This document shows, one piece after another, positions 15,078 through 38,712 of a stretch of 64,000 nucleotides of DNA. Origin of the DNA: Chromatiaceae bacterium. GTDB lineage: Bacteria; Pseudomonadota; Gammaproteobacteria; Chromatiales; Chromatiaceae. Within the stretch, counting starts at the first letter, position 1. Each line of letters starts with the position of its first letter. The stretch covers positions 1 through 64,000 of the forward strand of contig JAJDNF010000001.1 in the NCBI GenBank assembly GCA_022340805.1, given 5' to 3'. A program made the translations under genes and the position numbers. Under the pieces are notes generated by a model, which did no database searches, was not told the DNA's origin, and saw nothing but the letters and a program-made list of their open reading frames with translations.

Positions 15078-16088
15078 ATGAGTGCTGCCCCGATCCATGA
15101 CGCGCCGCGCAACGACTGGACGCTGGACGAGATCGGCGCGCTGTTTGCGCTGCCGTTCAACGACCTGCTGTATCGCGCACAGGCTGTGCACCGGGCCAAT
15201 TTCGATCCGAACCGGGTCCAGGTCAGTACGTTGCTGTCGATCAAGACCGGGGCCTGCGCCGAGGACTGCGCCTATTGCTCGCAGAGCGCCAAATACGACA
15301 CCGGCCTGGAGCGCGAGCGCCTGCTGCCGCTCGACGAGGTGATCGAGGCGGCGCAGGCGGCCCGATCCAAGGGTTCGACCCGCTTCTGCATGGGCGCCGC
15401 GTGGCGCAACCCCACCGACAAGAACCTCGACAAGGTGATCGAGATGATCGAGGCGGTGCGCGGCCTCGGCATGCAGACCTGTGTGACCCTGGGCATGCTC
15501 ACCGAGCCACAGGCCAGGCGGCTGCGCGAGGCCGGCCTGGACTATTACAACCACAATCTGGATACCTCGCCCGAGTTCTACGGCAACGTGATCTCCACGC
15601 GCACCTTCCAGGACCGGCTGGATACGCTGCAGCACGTGCGCGAGGCAGGTATAAACGTCTGTTCCGGCGGCATATTGGGAATGGGCGAGACCGGCACCGA
15701 TCGTGCGCGCATGCTGCAGGAGCTGGCCAATCTGCCCCAGCATCCGCAATCCGTGCCGATCAACATGCTGGTGCAGATCGAGGGCACCCCGCTGTATGGC
15801 AGGGACAGGCTTGACACGCTGCAGTTCGTGCGCAGTATCGCGGTTGCGCGCATCCTGATGCCAAAAAGCTACGTGCGCCTGTCAGCCGGTCGGACCGAGA
15901 TGAGTGACGAGATGCAGGCGCTGTGCTTCCTCGCCGGCGCCAACTCGATCTTCTACGGCGAGCGCCTGCTGACCACCGATAACCCGGCGGCCGATCATGA
16001 CCGGGCACTGTTCGAGCGGCTCGGCATCAACATGGAAACCGGTGAGCTGCAGGCGGATCGCCAGGCATGCGGCGGTTCGGGGCATTAG
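15078..16088 (+). CDS. bioB: Biotin synthase
   Basis: [15 protein letters not shown] radical SAM motif and [13 protein letters not shown]. Confidence 0.97.
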
Positions 16089-28651: not shown

Positions 28652-28881
28652 TCGGCAGCCTTGCCGGGTCCTTGGTGCTGGTTTTTCGTTGTGCGGGCAA
28701 TCCTGTCGTGGGCCCGGGCACGCGTCGTACCGCCTTGCGGGCCTGAGCGGTCTTTCGGAGCGAAACAACAATCCGCCCGAAATTCGCCTAGATATCGAGC
28801 GTATTCCGTTTGCCGTGCGGCTGTCGCGACCATGCGATGGCCAGGCGGTGTTTCGATCAACGGTCAGTCGGGGGACTTAAC

Positions 28882-30339
28882 ATGGCGCACCCAGCTGCTG
28901 CGACGACGCAGTACAACTACGACATCATTAAGAAGTTCGCCGTGATGGCTTTGGTCTGGGGGCTGCTGGGAATGTCCGCAGGCACCTATATCGCCGCTGA
29001 ACTGGCCTTCCCGTTTCTGAACTTCGACATCGCCGAGATCACCTTCGGGCGCTTGCGCCCGGTGCATACCACGCTGGTCATCTTCGGCTTTGGCGGCAGT
29101 GCATTGTTCGCGACCTCTTATTACGTGGTGCAGCGCACCAGCCAGGCACGCCTGGCCAGCGACATGATGGCCAACCTGACCTTCTGGGGCTGGCAGCTGT
29201 CAGTGCTGGTCGGCGTGATTGGCTACATGAACGGGATCAGCGAGGGCAAGGAATACGCCGAGTTCCCCTGGTACGTCGATCTGCTCATCACCGTGACCTG
29301 GGTGTTGTACTTCCTGGTGTTCGTGCTGACCCTGCGGCGTCGCTCGCAGCCGCATATTTATGTCGCCAACTGGTTTTACCTGGCGTTCATCCTGGCGACG
29401 GCGATCCTGCACATCTTCCGCAATCTGTCGGTGCCGGTCGGATTGTTCAATACCACCTCGTACAGCCTGTACTCGGGCGTGCAGGACGCGATGGTGCAGT
29501 GGTGGTACGGGCATAACGCGGTCGGTTTCTTCCTGACCGCGGCCTTTCTCGGCATGATGTATTACTTCGTGCCCAAGCAGGCGGGCCGCCCGATCTATTC
29601 GTACCGCCTGTCGATCATCCATTTCTGGGCGCTGGCCTTCATGTACATGTGGGTCGGTGGTCATCACCTGCACTGGACCGCGCTGCCGGACTGGACCTCG
29701 TCACTGGCCGCGGCCTTCTCGATCCTGCTGCTGCTGCCGTCCTGGGGCGGCATGATCAACGGCATCATGACCCTGTCGGGGGCCTGGGAGAAGCTGCGTA
29801 CCGACCCGATCATGCTGTTCCTGATCACCTCGCTGTCGTTCTACGGCATGTCGACCTTCGAGGGGCCGATGATGTCGCTGAAGAGCGTGAACGCGCTGTC
29901 GCACTACACCGACTGGACCATCGGCCATGTGCACTCGGGGGCGCTCGGCTGGGTCGCGATGATCTCGTTCGGCTCGTTCTATCACTTGATTCCGCGTCTG
30001 TGGGAGACCCGGCTGTACAGCGTCCGGCTGGTGTATGTGCACTTCTGGCTCGCGACCATCGGCATCGTGCTGTACATCGCCTCGATGTGGGTGTCGGGGA
30101 TCGGCCAGGGCCTGATGCTGCGGGCCTTCGATGACTACGGCAACCTGGCTTACACCTTCATCGAGTCGGTCGTGTTCATGCACTGGCCGCTGGTGGTGCG
30201 GATGATCGGCGGCATGTTCTTCGTGTCGGGTGTCGTGGTGATGGCGTTCAACGTGCTGATGACGGTCCGCATGGCGAAGATCGAGCAGGCGGCGCTCGAG
30301 GCGAAGATCGCCGCGAAGCTGGCCAAGGCCGGCGTGTGA
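28882..30339 (+). CDS. ccoN: cbb3-type cytochrome c oxidase subunit I
   Basis: [56 protein letters not shown]. Confidence 0.98.
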
Positions 30340-30352
30340 GGGGCATTTAGCA

Positions 30353-31093
30353 ATGAAACTGAGTCACGAAAGTATCGAAATCAATGCCGGACTGATGATA
30401 GTGCTGACGCTGATCGCCATCTCGATCGGCGGCCTGGTCGAGATCGTGCCGCTGTTCTACATCAAGGACACGATCGAAAAGGTCGACGGCGTGCGTCCGT
30501 ATACGCCGCTCGAGCAGCGTGGTCGCGACATCTTCATTCGCGAGGGGTGCTACACCTGTCACTCGCAGATGATCCGCCCGTTCCGCGACGAGGATATGCG
30601 CTACGGCCACTATTCACTGGCTGCCGAGTCGAAGTACGACCACCCGTTCCAGTGGGGCTCCAAGCGTACCGGACCCGATCTGGCGCGCGTGGGTCGCAAG
30701 TACTCCAACGCATGGCATACCCAGCACCTGAACAACCCGCGTGATGTGGTGCCCGAGTCGATCATGCCCAACTACCCCTGGCTGTTGCGCAACGAGCTGG
30801 ACTATGCGGATGTCGCCGATCGTATGCGCGCGCTGAAGTTGACCGGTGTGCCCTACTCGGAGAGCGAGGAGGAATACCAGGCCAATGTCGAGCAGTTCGG
30901 CAAGCCGATAGCGGATCAGCTGGACATCAACACGGCAGAAAAGAACCTGCTGGCCCAGGCCCAGGCGGAAGACTGGGACGGGGACCGTAGTCGCCTGACC
31001 GAGATGGATGCGTTGGTTGCCTATCTGCAGGTGCTTGGCACCATGGTCGATTTCAGCAAGTACGACGAAGGCTACTTCGCCGAATTCCGCTGA
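30353..31093 (+). CDS. ccoO: cbb3-type oxidase subunit II (monohaem)
   Basis: [34 protein letters not shown]. Confidence 0.97.
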
Positions 31094-31131: not shown

Positions 31132-31341
31132 ATGCTGGAATGGCTGTCGAAGATGGAGCACACCAAGCCGCTGGCGCTGGTGATCTTCGTGGTCGTGTTC
31201 GTCGGCATTTTGCTCTACGTGTTCACGGGTAAGAAGCGCTCCAAGCGCCTCGAGTCCTACAAGAACATTCCGTTCCTGGACGATGAGTCGGCAGGCGAGT
31301 CGGGCGGCGAACAGAAAGACAAGGGTTCACAAGATGGCTGA
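31132..31341 (+). CDS. ccoQ: cbb3-type oxidase subunit CcoQ
   Basis: 69-aa single-TM protein between ccoO and ccoP; GKKRSKRLESYKNIPFLDD. Confidence 0.85.
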   Translation: MLEWLSKMEHTKPLALVIFVVVFVGILLYVFTGKKRSKRLESYKNIPFLDDESAGESGGEQKDKGSQDG

Positions 31342-32248
31342 GCAACATCAAGGCAAGGCAGTGCAGACCACCGGGCATGCATGGGACGGCGATCTGCAGG
31401 AATTCAACAACCCGCTGCCGCGCTGGTGGCTGTGGTCCTTCTATGCGACCGTGCTATTCGCGGTGATCTACTGGATCTGGTACCCGGCGTGGCCGGTCGC
31501 CAAGTCGTTCACCAAGGGGATCGGCACCGTCACCTACCAGTCCGGCGGCAAACAGGTCACGACCCATTGGAACACCCGTGCTGAACTGATCGAGGAGATG
31601 CAGACCGGCAGCGAGACACTGAAGCAGCAGGCCTACCTCGAGAAGATCAGTGCGGCGTCGTATGACGACATTGTCAACGATCCCGACATGATGGCGTTCA
31701 CCCGCTCGATGGCCAAGGTATTGTTCGCCGACAATTGCGCCGCCTGTCACGGGGTCGGCGGCACGCCTGCGCAGATCGGCCAGTACCCGAACCTGCGCGA
31801 CGACGCCTGGCTGTGGGGTGGCGATATAAACCAGATCGAACAGACCATCTTGCAAGGGCGCAACGGTTATATGCCGGCATTCGGCGAGGTGCTGAGCGAT
31901 GCGCAGCTCGATGAGGTCGCCAACTACGTGCTCAGCCTGTCCGGTCATTCGGTCGATACCGCCATGGCCGATGCCGGGCGCGCGATCTTCCAGGGCAAAC
32001 AGGGCGGCTGCTACTACTGCCACACCGAATCGGGCAAGGGCATGGCCTCGCAGGGTTCTGCCAACCTGACCGACGCGGTCTGGACGGTCGCCGACGTGCC
32101 CGGCGCGGCCGATGATGCGGCCCGCGTCGAGGTGGTCAAGACGGTGATACGTAATGGCGTGCATCGCCAGATGCCGGCCTGGCGCGGGCGTCTCAGCAAT
32201 GCCCAGATCAAGCTGCTCACGGTATACCTGCAGAGCCTGGGCAGCTGA
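31334..32248 (+). CDS. ccoP: cbb3-type oxidase subunit III (dihaem)
   Basis: WDGDLQEFNNPLPRWWLWSFYATV; haem motifs CAACH and CYYCH. Confidence 0.97.
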   Translation: MAEQHQGKAVQTTGHAWDGDLQEFNNPLPRWWLWSFYATVLFAVIYWIWYPAWPVAKSFTKGIGTVTYQSGGKQVTTHWNTRAELIEEMQTGSETLKQQAYLEKISAASYDDIVNDPDMMAFTRSMAKVLFADNCAACHGVGGTPAQIGQYPNLRDDAWLWGGDINQIEQTILQGRNGYMPAFGEVLSDAQLDEVANYVLSLSGHSVDTAMADAGRAIFQGKQGGCYYCHTESGKGMASQGSANLTDAVWTVADVPGAADDAARVEVVKTVIRNGVHRQMPAWRGRLSNAQIKLLTVYLQSLGS

Positions 32249-32288: not shown

Positions 32289-32447
32289 TTCACCGCGAAG
32301 GGTGCAAAGTCTGGGAAGGACGAATCGGGTTTTGGGGCGGGTCTCCGGCGAGTGCCAAACCCGCGGACCGGTGTCCCAACTGTGGGGCCAAGCCAGGCAC
32401 ATCGACGCAATGGAACGCTTCGCGACCTTCGCGCCACTTGCGGTTAA
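32289..32447. repeat. Imperfect inverted-repeat intergenic element (MITE-like)
   Basis: Left arm ttcaccgcgaagggtgcaaag; right arm is the imperfect reverse complement of ttaaccgcaagtggcgcgaag (15/21 matches), between ccoP and ccoG. Confidence 0.45.
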
Positions 32448-32455
32448 GGTTTGAA

Positions 32456-33877
32456 ATGAATCAGGTCACCCAGACTCCACTCTACGCCGCACATACCCAC
32501 ATCTACCCGCGTTCGGTAAGCGGTCGCTTCCGGCGCCTGAAGTGGGCCATTGTCGTTATTGCCTATGGTGTGTACTTCCTGCTGCCCTGGCTGCGCTGGG
32601 AACGCGGCGGGGATACCGGGCAGGCGGTGCTGTTCGATCTGGCCGGGCGCAAGTTCTTCCTGTTCGACCTGGTCGTGCACCCGCAGGACATCTTCTGGCT
32701 GGCCGGTCTGCTGATGATCGCCGCTTATCTGCTGTTCTTCGTCACCGGTCTGGCCGGACGCGTGTTCTGCGGCTACTTCTGCTTCCAGACTTTATGGACC
32801 GATGTCTACATCCTGATCGAGCGGCTGGTCCAGGGCGAGCGCCCGGCGCGTATCCGTCTGGCCAGGCAGGCTTGGAACGCCGAGAAGTTGTTGAAGACCG
32901 GCCTGACCCACCTGCTGTGGTTGCTTATGGCCTTCGTCACCGGGCTGACCTTCGTGTTGTACTGGGGCGACGCACCGCAATTGATCGGTGAGTTCTTCGC
33001 GGGCAAGGCACCCTTCGCCGCCTACGCGACCACGCTGTTTCTCACTGCGACCACCTACGTAATGGCCGGGATCGCGCGTGAGCAGGTGTGCACTTACATG
33101 TGCCCGTATGCGCGCTTCCAGGCGGTGATGTTCGACAAGGACACCCTGGTCGTCTCGTACGACGCGCGGCGCGGCGAGGGAGGCGCGGGACGCGCCAAGC
33201 TCGGCGGCCAGTTGAAAGCGCGCGCGCAGCGCCAGCAGGCGGGGGTGGGCGACTGCATCGACTGCGGCTATTGCGTGCAGGTTTGCCCGACCGGGATAGA
33301 CATACGCAACGGTCTGCAGATCCAGTGCATCTCCTGCGCGCTGTGCATCGACGCCTGCGACACCATCATGGATTCGCTCGGCTGGGATCGTGGACTGGTC
33401 GGCTATACCTCGGAGCGCAAGACTGATACCGGTCAGCAGGCCAGGCTGCTGCGTCCCAAGGTGATCGGCTACGCGGCGGTGCTGGTGCTGGCCATTGGAC
33501 TGCTGGCCTGGAGCGTGTCGCAGCAGGCGGCATTCGACCTGTCGGTTGCGCAGGTCCGCCAGCCGATCTTCGTGCAGTTGTCCGACGGCCGCATCCAGAA
33601 CAGCTACGAGATCAAGGTCAACAACAAGACCAACAAGACCCTCACGCTGCGCTTCTCGGTGCGCGGGCTGGCGCAGGGTGCCGAGCTCGACATGGGGCAT
33701 TTTTCCGAGGTCAGCATGCACCCTGAGCAGCGCCTGCGACTGGGCGCCAATATCCGCATGATGCCGGCGCAGTTCGATGGCCGCAGTCACCCGTTCGAGC
33801 TGGTTGCCGAGCCGCAGGGCGTGCCTGGACTGGTGGCGATCGTGCATCCAAGCGTGTTCTTCGTGCCGCAGCAATGA
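32456..33877 (+). CDS. ccoG: Cytochrome c oxidase accessory protein CcoG (FixG/RdxA)
   Basis: CGYFCFQTLWTDVY, CTYMCPYARFQ, two 4Fe-4S clusters CIDCGYCVQVCP. Confidence 0.96.
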   Translation: MNQVTQTPLYAAHTHIYPRSVSGRFRRLKWAIVVIAYGVYFLLPWLRWERGGDTGQAVLFDLAGRKFFLFDLVVHPQDIFWLAGLLMIAAYLLFFVTGLAGRVFCGYFCFQTLWTDVYILIERLVQGERPARIRLARQAWNAEKLLKTGLTHLLWLLMAFVTGLTFVLYWGDAPQLIGEFFAGKAPFAAYATTLFLTATTYVMAGIAREQVCTYMCPYARFQAVMFDKDTLVVSYDARRGEGGAGRAKLGGQLKARAQRQQAGVGDCIDCGYCVQVCPTGIDIRNGLQIQCISCALCIDACDTIMDSLGWDRGLVGYTSERKTDTGQQARLLRPKVIGYAAVLVLAIGLLAWSVSQQAAFDLSVAQVRQPIFVQLSDGRIQNSYEIKVNNKTNKTLTLRFSVRGLAQGAELDMGHFSEVSMHPEQRLRLGANIRMMPAQFDGRSHPFELVAEPQGVPGLVAIVHPSVFFVPQQ

Positions 33878-34686
33878 GCATGAACGCATCGATGTTGCTG
33901 ACCGGAATCGGCGGCGGCGTGCTCGCCGAGATTGCGCTGTTCGTGCTGTTGCGGCGCCTGTTTCGGCTGGACGGCAAAACGGCCGGCGTGGCGATCGGTC
34001 TGCTGGCGCTGCTGATCTACGTGCCCTGGGCGATCCTGACCTGGCCGGGCGCGGACATCTTCGCGATCCACCTGGCGATCTTCCTTACCGCCGCCTATGC
34101 GCTGGGCATGGTCGGCGGCCGGGTCGGGCGTGGCTGGCACTGGGCACCGGCGCTGATCGTCGCCTTCTTCGTGCTGGTGATCGTAACCAATGTGGTATTC
34201 CTGGGCGTGGCGGAGCAGGGCATCACCGGTCTGTTCGCGCACTTGCTGCCCAAGCCGCGTGGCGCCGAGGTGGCGGACTCGCGCTTCCCCGGCACCGTCT
34301 CGCACGACTTCCAGAAGAAGGAGGCCCTGTACAACGACTACCTGCGCCAGGTCGAGGCCCAGGAGCTGCGCGGCTGGCAGGTGCACAAGGGCTGGCTGTA
34401 CAAACCGTTTGTCGGCCAGCCGGCGACCTTCGTCGTCAAGGTCAACGACCGCGCCGGCGTACCACTCACCGGGGCCGAGGTCAGCGGACGTTTTCTGCGC
34501 ACATCGGACAGCCGCGACGACTTCGATTTCCGCATGTCCGAAGTGGCGCCAGGTGAATACCGTGCAACGCTCGAGATGCCGCTGCACGGCCTGTGGCAAC
34601 TGGTGCTGCAGATCCGGCGCGGTGACGAGTTGCACGAGATCCGTGCCGACACCTCGGTCAGCGGCGGCCAGGGCGAGCGTTCCTGA
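33874..34686 (+). CDS. FixH-like protein with extended polytopic N-terminus
   Basis: C-terminal half FixH-like ([16 protein letters not shown]...[43 protein letters not shown]); N-terminal ~120 aa with several TM helices; between ccoG and ccoI. Confidence 0.8.
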
Positions 34687-37097
34687 TGGCCGCCGGCGAG
34701 ACCTGTTATCACTGCGGCCTGCCGGTACCCGACGGCGCGGACTACCGGGTCGAGATCGACGGCCAGTCGCGCGCGATGTGTTGCCATGGCTGCCAGGCGG
34801 TGGCGCAGGCGATCGTGGACGGCGGTCTGACCTCGTTCTACCAGCATCGCGAGACACCATCGCGCCGCCCCGAGGACCTGGTGCCCGAGGCGCTGCGCCG
34901 CTTCGATCTGTATGACCAGCCGGCCCTCCAGCAGAGCTTCGTGCAGGCCGATGAGTCCTCGGCCAAGACGGCCTCGTTGATCCTCGAGGGTATCACCTGC
35001 GCGGCCTGCATCTGGCTCAACGAGCGGCACGTGAATGCGCTGCCCGGGGTGCTCGATTTCTCGGTCAACTACAGTACTCACCGTGCGCGGGTGCGTTGGG
35101 ACGACACTCAGATCCGCCTGTCCGATATCCTCAAGGCGATCAGCGAGATCGGTTATGTGGCGCACCCGTTCGATCCGGGTCGCCAGGAGGCGGTGCACAA
35201 GAAGGAGAAATCCAGGGCCTTGCGCCGCCTGGCCGTGGCCGGCCTGGGCGCGATGCAGGTCATGATGCTGGCGATCGCGATGTATGCGGGCGACTACAGC
35301 GGCATGGAACAGCATCTGCGCGTGTTCATGCGCTGGGTGAGCCTGGTCTTGACCCTGCCGGTGGTGCTGTACGCGGCGAGCAGCTTTTTCGTCACCGCCT
35401 GGCGTGATCTCAGGCGCCGCCATTTGAGCATGGAGGTGCCGGTCTCGCTGGCGATCGGCGGGGCATTCGGCGCCAGTATCTGGTCCACGCTGACCAACGG
35501 CAGTGAAGTCTATTTCGACTCGGTCTGCATGTTCGCGTTCTTTCTGTTGACCAGTCGCTACCTGGAGATGGGCGCCCGGCATCGCGCCGGCGAGGCCGCC
35601 GAGGAGTTGGTCAAGCTTCTGCCGGCTACCGCGACTCGCCTGAGCGACACCGGCGAGCAGGTCGTCGCGGTGTCCGAATTGCGGCCGGGTGACCGGGTCA
35701 TGGTGCGGCCCGGCGAGACCATCCCCGCCGACGGCGTGGTCGGCGAGGGGCGCAGCTCGGTCGATGAGTCGCTGCTGACCGGCGAGAGCCTGCCGCGGCC
35801 GCGCTCGGCCGGCGACGAACTGGTCGGGGGCAGTGTGAACGTCGAGAGCCCACTGGTGATGATCGTGGAGAAGGTCGGCGAGGAGACCCTGGTCTCGGCG
35901 ATCGTGCGCCTGCTCGACCGTGCCCAGGCGGAAAAGCCGCGCCTCGCGCGCCTCGCCGACCATGTCGCCGGATGGTTCGTCGGCGTGCTGCTGGTCGTCG
36001 CCAGCCTGGTCGCACTGTGGTGGCTGGTGCATGCGCCCGAGCACGCCTTTGCTATCACGCTGTCGGTACTGGTCGTGACCTGTCCCTGCGCGCTGTCGCT
36101 GGCCACGCCCACCGCGGTTACCGCGGCCTCGGGTGCGCTGACCAGGATGGGGCTGTTGACCACGCGCGGCCACGCGCTCGAGACGCTTGCTCAGGTCAGT
36201 TATGTGTTGTTCGACAAGACCGGCACGCTGACCCGCGGCATCCTGCAGCTGGTGGGCGTCGAGGTGCTGTCCGCCCGGGCGGATACGGAGCGTTGCCTGG
36301 CACTGGCCGCGGCACTGGAGAGCGGGTCCGAGCACCCGGTGGGCAAGGCCCTGATCGCGCGTGCCGGGTTGGCGCCCAGGGTCAGCGAGCTGAGCGCATT
36401 GCCGGGGCAGGGCATGCAGGGCGAGATCGAGGGCCGGCGTTACCGGGTCGGTAGCCCGCCCTACGCGGCCGACCTGAGTGGTGCGGCCGTGCCGGACACC
36501 AGCGCGAGCGACACCACCGAGGTGTTTCTCGGCGACCAGGATGGCCTGCTGGCGCGCTTCGCGCTGCGTGACGAGTTGCGTCCGGACGCGGACGTCGCAA
36601 TCGCCCGGCTGCGTGAGCTGGGCCTGACGGTTGAGATCCTCAGCGGCGACGCCCCCGGCGCGGTGAACCGGGTGGCCGCGGAATTGGGCATCGAGCATGC
36701 CCGCTCGGGCATGCGCCCGGACGACAAACTTGCGCGGGTCAGGGAGCTGCAGGCGGCCGGGCACCGTGTGGCGATGATTGGCGACGGCGTGAACGATGCC
36801 CCGGTGCTGGCCGGCGCGGACGTCTCGATCGCGATGGGGCAGGGGGCGCAGCTCGCCCACGCGAGTGCCGACATGGTGGTATTGTCCGAGCGCCTGGCGG
36901 TACTCCCGGCCGGCGTGCGCAAGGCGCGCGCGACCCGCACCGTGATAAAGCAGAATCTGTCCTGGGCCGTTTTGTATAATATCGCCGCCGTGCCGATGGC
37001 AGCGGCCGGGCTGGTGGCGCCGTGGATGGCGGCAATCGGGATGTCGGCGAGTTCGCTGGTCGTCGTGTTCAATGCACTCAGACTGAAGGCCGATTAG
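34686..37097 (+). CDS. ccoI: Copper-translocating P-type ATPase CcoI
   Basis: [50 protein letters not shown]. Confidence 0.96.
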
Positions 37098-37100
37098 ACC

Positions 37101-37364
37101 ATGTCGATTCTGTATCTGCTGATCCCGCTGGCCGTGGGCCTGATGGTGGTGGCACTGGCATTCTTCCTGTGGACCGTGCGCACCGGCCAATACGACGACC
37201 TCGAAGGTCCGGCGCACCGCATCCTGATGGACGACGATGACCCGATGATCCCGGCCAACGCGAGGCCGAAGAAAGCGGCGGAAAAGCCGAATCGGCCGGC
37301 GAGCGCAGGATCGCCGACAATAAACAGCGAGGGTGGAGGGGTGGATGCCAACACAACTGATTGA
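37101..37364 (+). CDS. ccoS: cbb3-type oxidase assembly protein CcoS
   Basis: MSILYLLIPLAVGLMVVALAFFLWTVRTGQYDDLEGPAHRILMDDD. Confidence 0.93.
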   Translation: MSILYLLIPLAVGLMVVALAFFLWTVRTGQYDDLEGPAHRILMDDDDPMIPANARPKKAAEKPNRPASAGSPTINSEGGGVDANTTD

Positions 37365-37375
37365 GGAGCGGCCCC

Positions 37376-37468
37376 ATGTTCAGCTTTGACAATTTCGCCA
37401 TGACCATCGTCATCACCCTTATCGCGATGGCCTGGCTCAGTTTTTTCTCGGTTATCCTGGCCGGTTGA
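37376..37468 (+). CDS. Putative 30-aa single-TM microprotein at the end of the cco operon
   Basis: Own translation MFSFDNFAMTIVITLIAMAWLSFFSVILAG; GAGGAG ribosome-binding site upstream; not in ORF track. Confidence 0.6.
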   Translation: MFSFDNFAMTIVITLIAMAWLSFFSVILAG

Positions 37469-37564: not shown

Positions 37565-37601
37565 AAAAAACGAAGACGCCCGCACTGCTGCGGGCGTCTT
37601 C
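37565..37601 (-). terminator. Rho-independent terminator of rpoH
   Basis: Perfect 13-bp stem gaagacgcccgca/tgcgggcgtcttc, 4-nt loop, T6 on the minus strand. Confidence 0.9.
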
Positions 37602-37621: not shown

Positions 37622-38473
<852 letters not shown>

Positions 38474-38712
38474 GAATCCTGTTTCCACATCCTTTTCCAG
38501 TTCAAATTTAACACCCGGGACCCCCGGATGCCAGCCGATATTAGCAGTCTTCGCGTCAGAGTGCTAAACGGGTGAAAAAGTTCCGTGATTGTTGCAGATG
38601 TCTGTTTATAAAGATAAAAAACTGTTTCCTTCACGGCATCCCGCGGTCGCCCTGCGGGCCCCGCTGACGGCCATCCCAGCCGACAGCGCGGCCCGCGCGG
38701 ATCTGTAACGGA

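Follow-up and report, generated by a model that had tools for sequence, protein, structure and literature searches.

The cbb3-type oxidases support bacterial respiration at very low oxygen. Small single-helix parts of terminal oxidases, such as CcoM, CydX and YnhF, have repeatedly been overlooked, as genome annotation drops such short ORFs. CcoM is a tiny single-TM protein (36 aa) of the cbb3 oxidase of Pseudomonas stutzeri, the sequence of which was confirmed through chain N of PDB entry 5djq; in its case purified oxidase has been analysed by top-down MALDI-MS. CydX, also known as YbgT, is a single-TM protein of 30-40 aa that belongs to cytochrome bd and is encoded by the last gene of its oxidase operon. 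Its location downstream of cydAB is noted in PMC3899249. CcoQ (FixQ), also small and with a single TM helix, is encoded in the cbb3 operon itself, and the model NF038351 (cyt_ox_assem_30) describes a cytochrome oxidase small assembly protein of about 30 aa.

The gene described here encodes a 30-aa peptide and follows ccoS, the last of the cbb3 assembly genes. The peptide represents a new family, in that no family model searched matches it, and its kind is that of the known small terminal-oxidase accessory proteins: it is shorter than about 50 aa, has one TM helix and is linked to oxidase genes, lying after ccoS in 61 of 77 relatives. Both the peptide and CcoM start with MF and have an N-terminal Asn. 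The look-alike termini, MFSFDN in the peptide and MFVDN in CcoM, are a visual match only. An hhalign comparison of CcoM with a profile of 50 relatives returned a probability of 0.6% over one aligned column, and 5djq was not returned by PDB searches with the peptide or its profiles. CcoM differs in its basic C-terminus (RDAHKKS) and has no counterpart to the WLSFxSV core of the peptide. Among 369 genomes of the class a strong CcoM match was present in one (G370), which is without the peptide; its CcoM-like gene lies away from the cco genes, as do the stand-alone copies of the peptide gene. The description ‘CcoM/CcoH-like’ in the first-pass annotation of this DNA therefore holds as an analogy only, since no homology to CcoM was detected and the operon has separate genes for CcoH and CcoQ.

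The likeness to CydX is one of arrangement only, as cytochrome bd belongs to another oxidase superfamily. CcoQ is longer and is coded between ccoO and ccoP rather than after ccoS, and its model (PF05545) matched none of 50 members of the peptide family. The CcoS/FixS models PF03597 and TIGR00847 match the neighbouring gene and not the peptide, while NF038351 matched 0/50 members at E 0.1. No convincing match to the peptide or the 50 members was found in Pfam or NCBIfam, and no relative in the PDB; weak PDB matches to a mineralocorticoid receptor and a viral NS2 peptide (E 0.07-0.7) are attributed to chance. A literature search returned no description of a peptide at this position, and no paper naming ccoS together with rpoH and cbb3. 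In Shewanella and Vibrio, the corresponding position holds a dsbD-like gene (PMC3899249).

The peptide gene and its operon

The window, that is the whole stretch of 64 kb that was analysed, contains a complete cbb3 cluster upstream of the peptide gene, all on the plus strand. The cluster starts with ccoN, encoding the catalytic subunit (28810-30339), followed by ccoO (FixO; 30353-31093), ccoQ as a gene of its own (31132-31341) and ccoP (31283-32248). The last of these is listed from the first start codon after a stop, and its true start likely lies at about 31335. The assembly genes are ccoG (FixG; 32438-33877), ccoH (FixH, PF05751; 33874-34686), ccoI, encoding a FixI-type copper P-type ATPase (34686-37097), and ccoS (FixS; 37101-37364), directly 5′ of the peptide gene. 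Antisense to ccoI there is an open frame of 959 codons (34338-37217, minus strand) without a Pfam match, which probably results from the codon usage of high-G+C DNA. A second, higher-scoring ccoN is found elsewhere in the same genome (G000, contig C9:29626-31011), which brings the cbb3 catalytic subunits encoded by this genome to at least two.

The peptide gene occupies 37376-37468 of the plus strand. It runs from an ATG at 37376 through 30 codons, translated as MFSFDNFAMTIVITLIAMAWLSFFSVILAG, to a TGA ending at 37468, exactly as the first-pass annotation had it in both coordinates and translation. A GAGGAG Shine-Dalgarno (SD) site at 37363-37368 overlaps the ccoS stop codon (37362-37364) and leaves a spacer of 7 nt to the ATG, with 11 nt between that stop and the ATG; the distances of 9 and 12 nt given previously reflect a different counting convention. 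AlphaFold2 predicts one helix from the single sequence (residues 2-29, pLDDT 95). The charges of the peptide are almost confined to the N-terminus and are mixed in sign, and so do not fix its orientation in the membrane. It was the only ORF of 25-50 codons on either strand of the window to combine an SD-like site with a Kyte-Doolittle mean of at least 2.2 over 17 residues.

Downstream, a 13-pair stem-loop at 37572-37601, with its T run on the minus strand, likely marks a transcript end. It separates the peptide gene from the convergent rpoH gene (sigma-32; 37622-38488, minus strand), the RpoH box of which is visible in the translations of congeners.

Family membership and conservation

Relatives of the peptide amount to 77 distinct sequences, all in Gammaproteobacteria in the GTDB sense. 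In a whole-genome search, five further genomes of the genus proved to carry it, one of them as a degraded remnant, and matches extended to additional genera of the family and to other families within the class. The 369 class genomes yielded 51 carriers in a profile search at E of about 1e-4 or better; weak matches at E 0.002-0.08, several of them within long frames, were left out. Across 259 sampled genomes of the phylum, no convincing match fell outside Gammaproteobacteria, and the plasmid collection gave no match. When species genomes were scanned with a DNA pattern, 35 matches were obtained, including some near-duplicates (the peptides of L077 and L082 are identical). Among these matches are Thiothrix, Leucothrix, Thioalkalivibrio, Ectothiorhodospira and Solemya gill symbionts, along with Sulfuriferula, Sideroxydans and Methylovorus. 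The family spans many gammaproteobacterial genera, sulfur oxidisers among them, and the cultured carriers Thioalkalivibrio, Ectothiorhodospira (for example E. marina), Thiothrix and Leucothrix make its role testable.

The Ka/Ks-type comparison suggested in the first-pass annotation yielded a pN/pS of 0.23 over 196 pairs of relatives, the pairs having been picked at 75% amino-acid identity or more, which depresses pN somewhat. Differences among relatives numbered 831, 291 and 1768 at codon positions 1, 2 and 3, respectively, and the third position was the most variable in most congener pairs. Three congeners show 4 amino-acid among 14-20 nucleotide differences, an outcome seen in 0-3 of 20,000 sets of random mutations; for a fourth, more distant congener, 134 of 20,000 sets reach its amino-acid difference count. 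These comparisons point clearly to purifying selection on the peptide.

An SD-like motif precedes 63 of 75 relatives, compared with 12.6% in shuffled upstream sequence. The best conserved part is the C-terminal half, W20-L-S22-F23-x-S25-V26. L15 and V26 do not vary among 50 relatives, and F2, W20, S22, F23, S25 and G30 hardly do. The search of related genomes proposed at the outset found both the frame and the ribosome-binding site conserved downstream of ccoS, and it is this conservation in relatives that lifts the ORF well above chance. The ORF is very short and is lost in some congeners, as might be expected if it had arisen by chance or were a conserved RNA element located at the operon's 3′ end. 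Such a non-protein reading is nevertheless scarcely credible in view of the codon-position pattern, the conserved stops, the SD conservation and the residues that persist to approximately 45-50% identity; a chance ORF in particular is ruled out by the codon-position pattern, SD conservation and breadth. As judged from these alignments, the peptide is a genuine protein family, the frame of which is conserved beyond the congeners as far as other orders in the class.

Position among relatives and loss in congeners

The 61 relatives in which the gene lies directly 3′ of ccoS have it on the same strand, most of them within 50-300 nt; the figure includes the degraded remnant of G008. Convergent rpoH is also present in 34 of the 61, while 20 have no rpoH within 1.5 kb. 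A further 15 of the 77 adjoin rpoH with no ccoS found upstream, 10 of them with enough sequence to be sure. Stand-alone genes beside rpoH occur in Thiothrix, Leucothrix, G298, G107 and others, as a tandem pair in Thiothrix-type genomes and G298 and singly in Leucothrix. The Thiothrix-type tandem copies have diverged and lie far from cbb3 genes (L089 6655-6946, L091 3118-3417, L071 4639-5000, L080 4204-4558). G252, with ccoS and the peptide gene about 7.3 kb apart and other genes between them, represents an intermediate state.

That stand-alone copies remain beside rpoH could indicate a heat-shock or membrane-stress peptide tied to this sigma factor. This is very improbable, given that the two genes are convergent, and so are not co-transcribed, and that the 20 post-ccoS relatives noted above have no rpoH in range. 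A functional partnership with rpoH was ruled out, as many relatives have no rpoH nearby.

The association with the oxidase also appears in gene content. CcoN exceeded its cut-off in 51/51 robust carriers of the class sample vs 138/318 of the other genomes (Fisher p = 3e-17, phylogeny ignored), and exceeded the curated cut-off in all 14 tested stand-alone or weak carriers. No robust carrier without CcoN was found among the class sample and the tested stand-alone genomes.

Most members of the order that have ccoS lack the peptide, and direct inspection of six order members without it revealed nothing similar among the small ORFs that follow ccoS. The genus is represented by nine genomes, counting this one. 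Three (G001, G002 and G007) are without the peptide anywhere in the genome and pass from ccoS directly into the rpoH region, and a fourth, G008, retains a broken remnant (...CVLAWLGFFSTILAHG). The ccoS gene is intact in all four. The loss in some close relatives marks the peptide as accessory and dispensable. It is unlikely to be an obligatory cbb3 subunit, because it is missing or broken in four of nine congeners that keep ccoS and is free-standing beside rpoH in several genera. The first-pass annotation had inferred a cbb3 subunit or assembly factor; the cbb3 link is supported by the position after ccoS (61/77) and the CcoN count (51/51), and the losses and free-standing copies speak against an obligatory subunit. 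Through the congener losses, cbb3 enzymes that have the peptide and those that lack it form natural pairs.

Proposed role and FNR-like boxes

The peptide is probably a small membrane protein working with the cbb3-type cytochrome c oxidase, as an accessory, single-helix and most plausibly structural component. It would be translated as the last cistron of a ccoNOQP-GHIS transcript and inserted as a single TM helix with almost nothing outside the membrane. The W20-L-S22-F23-x-S25-V26 segment may then pack against the TM core of the oxidase, or against CcoH or CcoQ, and so lend stability to the finished complex or modulate how it is assembled, the role that CydX and CcoM have in their oxidases. 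The helix has no significant conservation moment (12% of shuffles attain the same value), so that no single interface face is shown. Conservation all round the helix would fit burial among partner helices better than one-sided exposure to lipid.

Most genomes place the gene with ccoGHIS and not with ccoNOQP, an arrangement that could reflect a transient helper in assembly or copper delivery, which acts with CcoS, CcoI and CcoH while CuB or heme is inserted and departs once the oxidase is complete. This role is rather unlikely, as the peptide contains no Cys, His or Met-rich metal motif and lies apart from ccoGHIS in the stand-alone genomes. Sequence does not distinguish a subunit from an assembly role. 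Overall, an accessory structural role was judged most likely and an assembly role next. A partner other than cbb3 is a lesser possibility, raised by the stand-alone copies and by G107, which retains the peptide despite divergent ccoG/H/I/S genes.

The ccoG/H/I/S genes of G107 (L173, L174) are of a divergent type, with a ccoI 40% identical to that of the window, and the peptide gene lies beside rpoH. In G105 (L058) it is likewise away from ccoS. The peptides of the two genomes have the unusual substitution S22G in common, together with Lys at position 5.

FNR is a type of regulator used for many cbb3 operons. A box of the form TTGAG-CCA(T/G)-(A/G)TCAA (TTGAGCCATATCAA) is common to four Thiothrix-type genomes, 81-85 nt before the first copy of the peptide gene and within an otherwise poorly conserved stretch. 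A conserved CAnACT follows about 22 nt past the box, arranged as in a class II FNR promoter. In G298, TTGATCGCGGTCAA is found 75 nt upstream of the second copy. A match of 9/10 occurs in 1.9% of random 250-nt stretches. The case for FNR control of the stand-alone copies is suggestive only, as the sites in the four Thiothrix-type genomes are related to one another, with one of them scoring 8.

These boxes, the single or tandem free-standing genes beside rpoH and the retention of the peptide in G107 would also suit a microaerobic membrane peptide with its own regulation and a partner other than cbb3, such as a respiratory complex or membrane regulator, which adjoins the cbb3 genes through a shared low-oxygen response only. 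Against this improbable reading stand the 61 of 77 relatives that directly adjoin ccoS and the lack of any robust carrier without CcoN in the genomes searched. Within the favoured association with cbb3, a more specific and tentative proposal is that this undescribed, Gammaproteobacteria-specific family of membrane peptides of about 30 aa may act as an FNR-controlled, dispensable modulator of the oxidase and not as a fixed subunit. If true, such a modulator would be free-standing and duplicated in Thiothrix-type sulfur oxidisers and lost repeatedly elsewhere, and cbb3 enzymes with and without it would coexist among close relatives.

No FNR box matching at least 8/10 positions was found 5′ of ccoN in the window. 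Elsewhere in the window, FNR-like boxes with 9/10 consensus bases are located at 15231 (TTGCTGTCGATCAA) and 19765 (TTGATCATTGTCAA).
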